Position numbers and translations under genes: made by a program
Shown here: one piece after another, positions 57,849 through 62,943 of the stretch
Position numbering within the stretch: the stretch's first letter is position 1
Layout of the letters: each line of letters starts with the position of its first letter
Assembly: GCF_023721715.1 (NCBI RefSeq)
Contig: NZ_JAMDLG010000017.1
Span: 124,001 to 188,000 of the forward strand
Origin: Parasegetibacter sp. NRK P23
GTDB taxonomy: Bacteria > Bacteroidota > Bacteroidia > Chitinophagales > Chitinophagaceae
Reading direction: 5' to 3'
DNA length: 64,000 bases
Notes under the pieces: generated by a model
Databases searched by the model: none
The model's input: the letters and a program-made list of their open reading frames with translations, nothing else
What the model was told of the DNA's origin: nothing

Positions 57849-60800
57849 CTAGTACAAGGGGATATTCAATGTAGACATAGTAGTTCTGGTAGTGCTGTCA
57901 TTACTGATTTTTGCATACAGCCGGTATTTTGATGGCGCGTGCGGTATGGTGAGCCGGAGCTGTGCGCCGTTCCCAACCGGAGCCATGCTCAGGTAAGTGC
58001 CATACCCATCTGTTTTGATGAGGTACCATTCGATTTTAAAAGACCGGACCGAATCGGGTATAAACCGCCAGTCCTGCTGCTTTTCGTTACGGGACAAAAG
58101 GTTGTACGTAAGCACTTCTTTTTCCAGCACCACCTTAGCAGGTTTGAGGATTTTTATTTCAGGAAGAACAGCTTTGGCCGGCATTGAACCGGGGCGCCAG
58201 TATTTCACCATGGAATCATAACTCTCCTTTCTGTTACCATTCAGGTCCATCACACCATCCAATTCCAGGTGGTTGTTGCTTTGCATATCCTGCCAGGCTG
58301 GAAGAACCAGCGGCGAATGATTCTTTTTTTCTAATACACCCCACCAGTTTGCCGGAACACTACCCCACACCGCCCTATCGGGAAGCGACGCATTGAGTGC
58401 CGTCTTATTCATGCTGTCCGCAGTTAAGAGAAAAACATCCGCAGAAGGTACATGCCTTTTTAACATTTTCAAACGCGACTCTCCTCTTTCATCCCAACGC
58501 ACATCTATACATACGGGCCTGGCGGTATCAACTTCGTGGATGAGGTGGCAAAGCTTTTCCAGCCAGCCGAGGTATTGGGTGCGCAAAGCAAAGCCTCCAG
58601 GAGCCGGATAACGTTGTTCTATCGCCTCAAGCATATCTCCGCTGATATTCCAGGCGATGATATTCTTTTCACTACCCAGTTTTTTAACCAATTGAATGAT
58701 CCTTTCTTTCTCCCTCTTTAAAGCTTTTTCATCGTTCAGACCGGCTATATCAAAATACGGCCATAACCTCGATACCAACATCATGCCGGATGCTTGCGTT
58801 ACCCGCATCATATTCTGGTCGTATATACCTGGCATGGAACGGAACACCGTGTTGATACCGGCTTTTTTCATTTCCCAGAAATCCTTTTCCAAAGCCTTTC
58901 TGCTGGGTTCGTGCTTATTCCTGAACCAATGAAACCCTTTGTCGTAAACAACACCCCGGAGGGAATCCGGAAGATGGCGCTTCTTCCATACGACAAAACT
59001 GCCGGTTGCTTTCAAACCACTTTTTACCAACAACGTTTGATCGACGCCTGAGTGCAATTTATCTTTCCAGTGCTGCTGCAACGAATCCGCCTGCAGGGAA
59101 GTTCCTTCATCAGATTCTACAAAAGCCCCCATCACTTCAGGAAACTTTTTCTGTATTGTTTCAATGGCGGTATTCCACCAGGCAAAATTGAAACCGCCAT
59201 CTGAATGGAAAGGAGCCCTGAACATAATTGGCACTCCCGCATGAAATACAGGCAGTTCGTGCCACTTCTTGTAAAGCACATCAAAAGAAGGTACGGTCGT
59301 TGCTCCCGGAATAGAATCTGGAATACTCATGTTTACCATCAGCCAGTCAACGAACCTTCTTCCGGGATATACTTCGGGTAAAACCGAAGCATCCTCAACA
59401 TCCCACACCCATACAAATTGACTAGCCCCGGCGTTTTCAAAAATACCGTGTATCCGTTCCCATATCTTTCTGAACAAAAACCGTGAAGTACCTTCTTCCA
59501 AGCCCAATGACAAACTAATGAATACCGGATGATCCACTTTTGCCAGCGCTTCCGCTGACGCCATCCACGCAGTATCGTATGCGCCATTCGCCAACTGGTA
59601 TAATTCCTCCTTATTCTTAACACTAAACGTACACCTTATAAATGGGATGGCCCCTTTCGACACAATACGTTTCATCTCCGGCAATAGTTCCCTTTCATCC
59701 AATTGGCGCACATGGAATGCAAGCATACTTGTAAGGCCGCTCACTTTTCCATGCTCAATACCATTGTCCACCCTTCCCCAATAAAACCTATCAAACTTGT
59801 ACTGTACTCCGGATGATTCACCGAATGATGGTTCCGCATCGCCCGACAAGTATCCCCATACAGCAACTCCCAGTACCATCAGGGCGCAGATGACCGCATA
59901 TTTTCTCATAAAAGCGTACACCCCGTGGCGCCATTTCCAAAAACCCATTTTTACCTTTCTCGTGCGGGAAGGCACCCCATCCCAATTACGTTGCTGATTT
60001 TTTGAAATCAGCAATACCACCACCATGATACATACGTTCACCAGCGCCAACGCCGCCATAAACAATGAATAGGGATTGAGGTCGTAATCGAGTCCCAGCA
60101 CGATGGCCACCAAAGACGCAGTGATCACAAAAAGGTTAGGAAGGTTCAGCGCAAGGGGCGTATGATCGTTCCCGTGCTTGGGTGTTGGGATATAAGGAAC
60201 TTTTTTCCGGATCAGGGTATAATACATCCCCAGGAGGTGTATCCACCAAGTGCCGATCTGCAGAAAGCCCCCCACCACATGGATGCCCCGTTCGGTTTCT
60301 TCGGCTACCCAGTGCTGCACATAATGCCTGATCAGCAGGATCATGGTGAATAAAGGAAAGCCGGCCAGCGCAAACTCGGCGATATCTATATCAAGGGGCA
60401 TCGCGCCTGTCAGCAAACTTAAAATGGGGATAAGAAAATTGAGCAGGAATATAAGTCCACCGGCATAATGAAACGGCAAAGTGAAATAATGGAGCCGCTG
60501 CCGCCACGTGAAATGTTTGAATAACCGCGGAAAGGCCGTCACCAGCAATTCGAAAGTACCCCTCGACCATTTCAGCTGTTGTTTGTAATACGCGGAGAGT
60601 GTGGAGGGCACGAGCCCGCGTGAAAGCACTGCCGGAAGATAAGTTGATCTCCATCCTTTGGCGTGAAGTTGCATGGCCGTGTGCATGTCTTCCGCAAGAC
60701 CAGCGGCATGTCCGCCAATGGAGTCAAGCGCGGAGCGCCGGAAGGTACAATTCGCGCCGATGGCCTGCACCGTACCATAAGTGTTCATGCACATCATCAT

Positions 60801-61472
60801 CGGGCCGTAAAACTGGTAGGTTTGCTGAGCTGCACCTTTGGCCACAAGACTTTCCGGGTGGTTGTAATAAGCCTGTACCACCTGCACAAAGCCAATACCG
60901 GGATCATCAAAAAAAGGCACAACGGCTTTCAGGAAGCCCGGGGCCGGCACATGGTCGGGATCCAGCACAACACACAATTCCCCATGGGCAAGTTTTAACG
61001 CGTTGTTGATGTTGCCCGCCTTCGCGTCCTTTTTATCTGTCCTGGTTACATGTCTAACGCCTAATTCCAGGCATATGCTCCGCACGAATGGGTCGTCCGC
61101 CTCATCGCAACACCACACCACCGAAGACGGATATTCCATTTCCACTGCCGCCTGAAGTGTTTGCCGCAGCATATCGTATGGTTCTCCGGCACAAAAAGTA
61201 GTGAATACATCAACCGTGTACGACTTGTCGGTATGCCTTGGCGAAGGCGCCGATAGGGAAAAATAATGGTACCATTCGTGCAGGGCCTTCAAACAGAAAT
61301 AGGACAGGGTAATCATTAGAAGCAGGTAAAGCAGGAAATTGTCCCTTTCTGAGGCTACGGCTATCGCATGAATGAAAAAGCAAAGCGCTATTACGCCCAT
61401 TACAATGAGCACACGGAGCTTTATGAGCTCTTTCCGCGATGGTCCGCCAACAAAACTTTCCTTTACTTTCAT
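57849..61472 (-). CDS. GT2 membrane polysaccharide synthase fused to two glycosidase-like TIM-barrel domains
   Basis: 1207 residues. Two N-terminal membrane helices (about 18-40, 45-63) precede a cytosolic GT2 domain with DPD (171-173), AED (260-262) and QQLKW (298-302, in place of QxxRW), the cellulose-synthase-like set. Further helices lie at about 335-356, 366-384, 400-421, 445-460, 467-489 and 524-541. From 560 to about 800 follows a domain like family GH26, with VDHPVFIS, IFENAGASQFVWVWDVED and YPGRRFVDW. From about 835 to 1095 follows a GH2/GH5-like barrel, and the last 100 residues form a beta-module. Both barrels lack the expected glutamates. The start overlaps the upstream GH gene by 4 bases. 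It probably exports a beta-glycan; no PilZ domain is visible. Confidence 0.85.
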   Translation of the reverse strand: MKVKESFVGGPSRKELIKLRVLIVMGVIALCFFIHAIAVASERDNFLLYLLLMITLSYFCLKALHEWYHYFSLSAPSPRHTDKSYTVDVFTTFCAGEPYDMLRQTLQAAVEMEYPSSVVWCCDEADDPFVRSICLELGVRHVTRTDKKDAKAGNINNALKLAHGELCVVLDPDHVPAPGFLKAVVPFFDDPGIGFVQVVQAYYNHPESLVAKGAAQQTYQFYGPMMMCMNTYGTVQAIGANCTFRRSALDSIGGHAAGLAEDMHTAMQLHAKGWRSTYLPAVLSRGLVPSTLSAYYKQQLKWSRGTFELLVTAFPRLFKHFTWRQRLHYFTLPFHYAGGLIFLLNFLIPILSLLTGAMPLDIDIAEFALAGFPLFTMILLIRHYVQHWVAEETERGIHVVGGFLQIGTWWIHLLGMYYTLIRKKVPYIPTPKHGNDHTPLALNLPNLFVITASLVAIVLGLDYDLNPYSLFMAALALVNVCIMVVVLLISKNQQRNWDGVPSRTRKVKMGFWKWRHGVYAFMRKYAVICALMVLGVAVWGYLSGDAEPSFGESSGVQYKFDRFYWGRVDNGIEHGKVSGLTSMLAFHVRQLDERELLPEMKRIVSKGAIPFIRCTFSVKNKEELYQLANGAYDTAWMASAEALAKVDHPVFISLSLGLEEGTSRFLFRKIWERIHGIFENAGASQFVWVWDVEDASVLPEVYPGRRFVDWLMVNMSIPDSIPGATTVPSFDVLYKKWHELPVFHAGVPIMFRAPFHSDGGFNFAWWNTAIETIQKKFPEVMGAFVESDEGTSLQADSLQQHWKDKLHSGVDQTLLVKSGLKATGSFVVWKKRHLPDSLRGVVYDKGFHWFRNKHEPSRKALEKDFWEMKKAGINTVFRSMPGIYDQNMMRVTQASGMMLVSRLWPYFDIAGLNDEKALKREKERIIQLVKKLGSEKNIIAWNISGDMLEAIEQRYPAPGGFALRTQYLGWLEKLCHLIHEVDTARPVCIDVRWDERGESRLKMLKRHVPSADVFLLTADSMNKTALNASLPDRAVWGSVPANWWGVLEKKNHSPLVLPAWQDMQSNNHLELDGVMDLNGNRKESYDSMVKYWRPGSMPAKAVLPEIKILKPAKVVLEKEVLTYNLLSRNEKQQDWRFIPDSVRSFKIEWYLIKTDGYGTYLSMAPVGNGAQLRLTIPHAPSKYRLYAKISNDSTTRTTMSTLNIPLY

Positions 61473-62785
61473 TCTCCTACTACATAAAATGGGGTATTGG
61501 CCGTAGCGGCATACCCATTATTATTTTTAACGGTAACAAATATGCGATAAGGGCCTTCCTGCCGCGGGGCCTTAAAAACCACCTCGGCACTTGTACTATC
61601 CATCCATAAATTTGTTTCGGGTAGTGGTTTGATCCACTTACCGGTGTACTGCCCCCACCAGTCGTCGCGTATGATTTCCCAGGCATAACTTACCGATCCT
61701 TTAGTGTTGTTCATCAAAATTTCAGCGGCGTGTATGGTTCCCGGCGCGAATAACAACTGATCCCTGGCGCCTTTCTTATCGACCAGCATATATTTAATAT
61801 CTGGTGAAACGTGTGTTGTTATAGTATCGTTCCAGCAATCCTTCAGGGCTTCTACTGTTTCGACAGGCTCTCCATTGTAGGTGAAAAAACTGAACCAGGT
61901 ATGGGTATATTCCTGCTTGTTGCCCCAGAAAAAAACCAGCGATCCGAGAAAGCGGGGATCATCATGCGGTATGGCCGTTTTATACAGTTCACGCAACTGT
62001 TCAGCGTTTTTAGTACTGGTGTTTTCGATGGAAGATTGCCATTGGGTAGTTTCTGATTCCCATCCACCGGGCACGCCCCATTCGGTGAGCAGAAAGGGGC
62101 CATCCCAGAACCAGTTGAAAGAACGGAGGTCCTCTTTCAACTGGTTCATCCGTCCAAAAGTATTGATGGAGATAAAGTCAAGTCCATTGATCCTGGCCTG
62201 AATATTAATGATTTCCCGTTTTTCGAAATTAGCGAGTGGCGTGGTAACAGGGTGATTCGGATCTTCCCGTTTAATCAGACGCAACATTTTATTGTAGGCA
62301 TCGTAAAAAGGAATATGCCGCACATGGAAGGGAAACCTGAGTTCATTGCCGAGGCACCAGACCAGCAGGGCGGGGTGGTTTTTGTATTTTTTCACACACA
62401 CTTCAAGGCTGTTCATCAACGCATTCACCTTAGCGGTATCCTTATAAAAAGTGGATGCCTGGTGGCTTCCCGGCAGGTCAAAACCAGCCACCACCGCCAA
62501 ACCCAGGCTATCGGCCTTATCCAGGATTTCTCCCAGGTTGGTGGTATCCCAGGTTCTTATCGTATTTCCACCAATCCCTGCCAGTTCCCCGAGATAAGTA
62601 TAACCCGCCCCTCCCTTCACCAGGAAGGGTTGCCCATTCCTGTATAGCATCCAGCGACCGTCTACCTTTTTTAATTCAACCGCTTTTCCCTCTGTTTGTC
62701 GGGTCGCGTTGTTGTTATCCCCCGGACTACAAGTACACAGGAAACAGGTCAAAAAAAACATACAGATTGGTTCCAGGATGCGCAT
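61469..62785 (-). CDS. Lipoprotein glycoside hydrolase (GH2/GH5-type TIM barrel) partner of the synthase
   Basis: 438 residues from the ATG at 62783-62785 (an upstream TTG adds eight residues). A lipoprotein signal ends FLCTCSPGD. The TIM barrel has TIRTWDTTNLGEILDKADSLGLAVVAGFDLPG, the acid/base glutamate in LLVWCLGNELRFPF and the nucleophile in PFLLTEWGVPGG. A C-terminal beta-module (about 330-438) with the EGPYRIFVTVKNNNGYAATANTPFYV strand pattern resembles the C-terminus of the synthase. The stop ATGA overlaps the synthase start, so the two are coupled. It is likely exported to the outer membrane or periplasm to trim or release the polymer. Confidence 0.85.
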   Translation of the reverse strand: MRILEPICMFFLTCFLCTCSPGDNNNATRQTEGKAVELKKVDGRWMLYRNGQPFLVKGGAGYTYLGELAGIGGNTIRTWDTTNLGEILDKADSLGLAVVAGFDLPGSHQASTFYKDTAKVNALMNSLEVCVKKYKNHPALLVWCLGNELRFPFHVRHIPFYDAYNKMLRLIKREDPNHPVTTPLANFEKREIINIQARINGLDFISINTFGRMNQLKEDLRSFNWFWDGPFLLTEWGVPGGWESETTQWQSSIENTSTKNAEQLRELYKTAIPHDDPRFLGSLVFFWGNKQEYTHTWFSFFTYNGEPVETVEALKDCWNDTITTHVSPDIKYMLVDKKGARDQLLFAPGTIHAAEILMNNTKGSVSYAWEIIRDDWWGQYTGKWIKPLPETNLWMDSTSAEVVFKAPRQEGPYRIFVTVKNNNGYAATANTPFYVVGE

Positions 62786-62943
62786 ACATTTGATTTTCAA
62801 CACTTTCAAAGGATGCTGGTTCTACCGAGGCTGGGGCTAAGGTAGGGAACAACGCCTGAAAAACGTCGTTTCTTTTCGCATAATTCTCCTGGTTCTACAC
62901 AAAATTCTATTTCGCAATACCCTACCCTGGTTATCTTCGTAAG

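Follow-up and report, generated by a model that had tools for sequence, protein, structure and literature searches.

Receipt and trimming of a nascent polysaccharide outside the membrane are known mainly from the cellulose, alginate, PNAG and cyclic glucan systems. The nearest described relatives of the protein analyzed here are the NdvB-like 'Orphan' GT2-GH17 cyclic beta-1,3-glucan synthases of Pseudomonas, in which, as presented in PMC10237404, a membrane GT2 is fused to a periplasmic barrel that meets the nascent beta-glucan; that GH17 barrel precedes the GT2 and is proposed to be active. A further likeness is to the C-terminal domain of PgaB (GH153, PNAG), also a periplasmic glycosidase-like domain belonging to a synthase system, which binds the polymer and matters for its export (PMC5933820). 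PgaB is a separate protein of another family, and its C-terminal barrel, which lacks canonical residues and had at first been taken for inactive, was found to hydrolyse the polymer, with D474 as the probable catalytic acid (as described in PMC5933820). RiGT2, a mixed-linkage glucan synthase, resembles the present protein in its GT2 of cellulose synthase type and possibly in product class, but is described in PMC10374906 as having a PilZ tail and no fused barrels.

We analyzed a 64,000-nucleotide stretch of the genome of Parasegetibacter sp. NRK P23 (contig NZ_JAMDLG010000017.1, positions 124,001 to 188,000), referred to here as the window, in which a GT2 synthase carries two glycosidase-like barrels C-terminal to its catalytic domain. 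These barrels match GH26 and GH158 rather than GH17, and unlike the GH17 barrel of the 'Orphan' synthases they have lost their catalytic residues. Searches of the open-licence PMC literature listed no paper whose title or abstract concerned this architecture or the control of bacterial glucan synthases by a dead barrel.

Layout of the synthase and its lipoprotein neighbour

The synthase is encoded on the minus strand by a single unbroken reading frame of 1207 aa with an ATG start (57849..61472). Profile searches placed residues 51-384 among cellulose synthase-type GT2 domains (PF13641, 1.8e-26; BcsA structures, 9.5e-36); the catalytic part, approximately residues 74-384 (60321..61253, minus strand), contains DPDH at 171, AED at 260 and QQLKW at 298. 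The protein scores 166.7 bits against TIGR03030, the BcsA equivalog model, which is under the cut-off of 699.1, and no PilZ domain is among its Pfam matches, so that a BcsA-type tail is lacking. A GH17 barrel N-terminal to the GT2 is likewise absent, as the first membrane stretch begins after only some 20 residues. PADLOC gave no match to the locus, and a defence-system reading is therefore unsupported. QxxRW, with Arg, is named as a GT2 motif in PMC10374906; at this position the synthase and its relatives have Lys for Arg (QQLKW, 60567-60581 in the window).

Hydropathy analysis indicated two membrane stretches before the GT2 domain and approximately four after it (peaks merged by eye). These are followed by a loop rich in K/R, residues 490-517 (8 K+R, 1 D+E), and by one further and last hydrophobic stretch at residues 518-544 (59841..59921, minus strand). 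This order of loop and hydrophobic stretch would place residues 545-1207, including both barrels, on the periplasmic side. Pfam gave no match in residues 545-1207 of the window synthase. An AlphaFold model of the barrel region, built from 16 sequences and with a mean pLDDT of 72, shows two TIM barrels followed by an Ig-like domain; this model was searched for fold neighbours with Foldseek and VIA-align.

Immediately upstream of the synthase, with a 4-nt overlap, lies a lipoprotein-like gene of 446 aa (61469..62809, minus strand). Its product belongs to GH158 by profile (5.9e-110 to 9oro, 2.1e-91 to BuGH158), and the fold search concurs. N155, E156 and E243 are all present, the acid/base E156 (62342..62344) and the nucleophile E243 (62081..62083) aligning with E137 and E220 of BuGH158, so that GH158 activity is predicted. 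A previous reading of this DNA, made from sequence only, had also found the neighbour to keep its catalytic Glu residues. The lipobox was judged by eye, and a pattern scan detects one in some family members but not in all. The window's genome contains no other full-length GH158 protein; six weak partial matches are all to larger proteins. Here and below, the codons of the putative catalytic positions were checked.

The two glycosidase-like barrels

The first barrel (approximately residues 560-790; 59103..59795, minus strand) has the fold of the GH26 lichenase CtLic26A (2bv9, Z 21.4, 243 aligned, rmsd 3.3). A profile of the window clade matches CtLic26A at 1e-16 and stand-alone GH26 proteins at 99.9% (hhalign), so that the barrel is of GH26 type by fold and by sequence similarity at the level of the clade; the window sequence alone gave no Pfam GH26 match. 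Both catalytic Glu residues are gone: the HE position reads L656-G657, with G657 at the acid/base position (59502..59504), and A753 occupies the nucleophile position (59214..59216). This placement is consistent among a MAFFT alignment with 10 stand-alone GH26 proteins, the full-length alignment, hhalign and the AlphaFold strands, in which beta-4 is 650-656 and beta-7 is 749-752. HE and EFG/ELG are intact in 10/10 of these stand-alone GH26 proteins, whose genes adjoin that of a 540-aa GT2. E659/E660, which had been raised as possible substitute catalytic residues, are not favoured, since they align 2-3 residues past the catalytic Glu, at the D-N of live relatives. Elsewhere in this genome, no lichenase-type GH26 was found.

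The second barrel (approximately residues 830-1096; 58185..58985, minus strand) is followed by an Ig-like C-terminal domain like that of GH158 enzymes (approximately residues 1105-1207; 57852..58160, minus strand), found in the AlphaFold model and the fold search. Together they have the fold of GH158, a family of endo-beta-1,3-glucanases: model residues 286-663 match 9p26 with Z 22.6 (330 aligned, rmsd 4.7) and BuGH158 (6pal) with Z 22.5, and GH158(Pro) (9oro) has this fold too. These enzymes are closely related to the neighbour lipoprotein. In sequence, the relation to GH158 runs through the live fused copies, whose profile the barrel matches at 99.8% and which in turn match GH158 at 100% and GH158 structures at 7e-33; the window-clade profile by itself matched no GH158 structure, the link depending on these intermediates or on the fold. 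Since GH158 ranks first by sequence as well as by fold, the GH2/GH5 label originally given to this barrel does not apply.

Replacement of N136, E137 or E220 by Ala in each case abolished the activity of BuGH158, according to PMC7157763. The window residues at these positions are G945, D946 (acid/base; 58635..58637) and S1038 (nucleophile, at the end of beta-7; 58359..58361), so that in contrast to GH158 enzymes neither the Asn-Glu pair nor a nucleophile Glu is present; the GNE turn, as had been proposed, reads S944-G945-D946. The nucleophile aligns with S1038 by MAFFT and in the full-length alignment, or with V1035 by hhalign; beta-7 is A1034-S1038 (model 490-494), and around it no acid occurs between D1032 and E1048. 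The string LVLPAWQD (1055-1062), which the sequence-only reading had taken for the nucleophile strand, is rejected in that role, as it forms beta-8 in the AlphaFold model (1055-1059; model 511-515); its W1060 is the beta-8 Trp common to 65/65 lipoproteins and 46/47 dead barrels. The other three of the four strand placements are correct, and all the quoted strings lie at the residues given, except that PIMFRAPFHSD spans 748-758, not 748-757. The misplaced strand leaves intact the conclusion that both domains are without the catalytic Glu pair (G657/A753 and D946/S1038), which alignments and model alike uphold. Judging from these residues, we infer that neither barrel would be able to hydrolyse glucan by the GH26 or the GH158 mechanism. 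By analogy, PgaB may be regarded as the main warning against calling the barrels inactive; position 946 is Asp in 17 of the 47 dead copies of the second barrel.

Family sample and history of the catalytic losses

Relatives were gathered by a first search, which gave 15 loci, and by further searches of genomes; the counts given here cover 69 related Bacteroidota synthases with their surroundings. Loci L001, L017-L021 and L028-L043 were dropped beforehand as duplicates of larger stretches, and synthases shorter than 750 aa were also dropped, including that of L044 (736 aa, stopped by a TAG within its frame). The GH26 part was scored as absent, by manual assignment, in eight synthases (L051, L052, L071-L074, L076 and L093, of which L076 has a weak partial match). 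The total of 57 GH158-like copies consists of 54 scored ones plus L012 and L013, which keep the catalytic residues, and L052, which reads GNT; L047 keeps the acid/base Glu, its contig ending before the nucleophile. In a GT2 tree of 74 rows, the window synthase has eight Ferruginibacter-type proteins as its sister group, together a clade of nine rows supported at 100/99, and its nearest relative is 69% identical in the GT2 part.

The two barrels have different histories. The acid/base Glu of the GH158-like barrel changed once on the GT2 tree (7 scored rows with, 47 without), and 48 of the 57 copies lack it; it was lost once, long ago, and the active-site face has been conserved since. The 46 other dead copies have 56 columns conserved at 80% or more, 50 of which the window keeps; they include Y843, K845, W849, Y884, W904, W941, W1060, Q1061 and D1062, which in the model sit at the ends of strands 1-4 and 8 or close by. 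Many of the conserved residues are aromatic or polar and lie at the C-terminal ends of these strands, the face on which such barrels hold substrate. The GH26-like barrel, on the other hand, decayed repeatedly in the family: both Glu residues are present in 31 of 61 copies and one or both missing in 30, with at least 6 changes of state on the GT2 tree, and the part is absent altogether from 8 of the 69 synthases. Within the window clade, the residues at the two GH26 Glu positions vary by species (G/A, Q/E, S/A, E/G, G/G, A/A, N/K), and one member (L007) retains Glu at both.

A GH158 lipoprotein was found in the stretch surrounding 65 of the 69 synthases, in 60 cases at most 600 bp away; two of the four synthases without one sit on contigs shorter than 3.5 kb. 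Both catalytic Glu residues are present in 65 of 66 lipoproteins, and the 66th is truncated, so that all 65 complete ones have them.

Estimates of selection were drawn from relatives because the nearest relative of the window synthase is so distant. Fourteen close pairs were tried, with omega values obtained from 11 for GT2 and GH26 and from 10 for GH158, the rest being saturated. Omega was 0.03-0.07 for GT2 (11 pairs), 0.07-0.20 for the dead GH158-like barrels (10 pairs), and for the GH26-like part 0.05-0.16 where both Glu are kept (7 pairs) and 0.18-0.31 where Glu is lost (4 pairs). The dead barrels of these relatives are therefore still under purifying selection, the GH26 ones more loosely; values below 1 are also compatible with constraint for folding alone. 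At a GT identity of 0.70-0.80, dead GH26 parts have an identity of 0.376 (32 pairs) and live ones of 0.515 (66 pairs), so that the dead ones diverge faster; the dead class includes five loci (L007, L048, L064, L065 and L066) in which both Glu remain and other residues are gone.

Proposed role of the barrels, and variant loci

The best explanation of the locus as a whole, to which we assign a probability of roughly 0.6, combines a GT2 beta-glucan synthase, a receptor-like dead GH158 barrel, a live trimming lipoprotein and a GH26-like barrel serving as spacer. The membrane GT2 would extrude beta-glucan, and the nascent chain, on leaving the membrane channel, would meet the GH158-like barrel, an old pseudo-enzyme that may hold, guide or gauge the chain but not cleave it. 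The presumably active GH158 lipoprotein of the same operon would do the cutting or end-trimming. The GH26-like barrel would derive from an active lichenase-type barrel of the fused ancestor; with its cleft dismantled in the window, it would be at most a spacer or scaffold between the membrane and the receptor barrel. Judging from the families to which the domains belong, the product would be mixed-linkage or beta-1,3-glucan. The conserved face of the second barrel and the pairing with a live lipoprotein fit the role of a non-cleaving glucan receptor, although binding of glucan by this barrel and hand-over of the chain to the lipoprotein are presumed.

The first barrel of the window retains none of 17 active-site-like residues (0/17, our own choice among columns invariant in stand-alone GH26 and not taken from a ligand complex), the lowest value among 61 copies. 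Of the 87 columns that 25 live fused copies conserve, it keeps 27; when live fused copies were scored against the others, the values were 71/74 and 68/79. The loss of all 17 residues, unlike CtLic26A, suggests that this barrel is probably a spacer or remnant. The proposal that both domains are non-cleaving glycan binders or guides may thus hold for the second barrel, with its 50 of 56 columns, but appears not to extend to the first. The state of the first barrel, the faster divergence of dead GH26 parts and the complete absence of that part from some synthases also suit the view that both barrels are remnants without a glycan role, kept through their fusion to the synthase and the need to fold, for spacing or stability. 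We consider this unlikely for the pair, as the second barrel has retained the columns of the dead copies, many of them polar or aromatic at strand C-terminal ends, and as most synthases that keep this barrel lost its catalytic Glu and not the domain.

It is more doubtful still that one barrel remains enzymatic with a rearranged catalytic set, for example with D946 alone or by a substrate-assisted route, perhaps as a transglycosylase. PgaB offers a precedent, as described in PMC5933820; D946 is invariant across the 7 sequences of the window clade, and 9 of 47 acid/base-dead relatives retain the nucleophile Glu. The acid/base column, however, is free to vary among the 47 dead copies, which have 17 D, 8 N, 8 A and others, and in the window the Asn and both Glu are replaced, with no acid at beta-7. 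That the losses are sequencing or assembly errors is hardly conceivable, given the unbroken frame, an assembly 99.87% complete and 0.03% contaminated, and related species with their own replacements at the same positions; no evidence pointing to such errors was found.

If the second barrel is indeed a receptor, this would help to explain how beta-1,3 or mixed-linkage glucan is received and trimmed outside the membrane of a Gram-negative bacterium, and the locus would offer a testable case of a polysaccharide synthase that has incorporated a pseudo-glycosidase, of which naturally occurring live and dead forms could be compared. We suggest tentatively, at odds somewhat short of even, that in a Bacteroidota-wide family of GT2-GH26-GH158 synthases the old dead GH158 barrel is a fixed chain receptor beside a live GH158 lipoprotein and sets hand-over or length. 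The product of the family flagged here could be a new bacterial beta-glucan.

Several loci depart from the arrangement in the window. Five (L061, L100-L103) have a 540-aa GT2 gene beside a separate live lichenase-type GH26 gene, an unfused arrangement that was used as outgroup. A shorter class of synthases (823-891 aa; L055, L057-L060, L078, L080-L083) has nothing beyond the GH26-like part; in 10/10 one or both GH26 Glu are missing, and a GH158 lipoprotein lies near each, often on the other strand. In one genome (G121) an in-frame TAG breaks the synthase after the GH26-like part and before the GH158-like one (L018:2784-2788; same gene in L044), giving a piece of 639 aa, truncated where the locus ends, and one of 429 aa. 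Two genomes, G953 (L084/L085) and G987 (L086/L087), each encode two distinct synthases, and a separate lipoprotein accompanies each copy.

A tandem GH26 protein of 559-623 aa is encoded near 12 synthase loci (e.g. L051:9991-11676, L002:2493-4226; as two frames in L069) and occurs in 18 of 51 genomes searched. Its use as a stand-in for the lost fused GH26 is unsupported, as it is carried by 9 of 28 genomes with both Glu and by 9 of 23 with lost Glu or domain, in a tally made by eye with G121 counted as lost and two-copy genomes counted by their scored GH26 state. The C-terminal barrel of this protein keeps HE and TEFG, whereas the N-terminal barrel is without the nucleophile Glu in 11/11 cases and without the acid/base Glu in 7/11. 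The pairing of a dead with a live barrel thus recurs, between the fused GH158-like barrel and the lipoprotein and between the N- and C-terminal barrels of the tandem GH26 protein.
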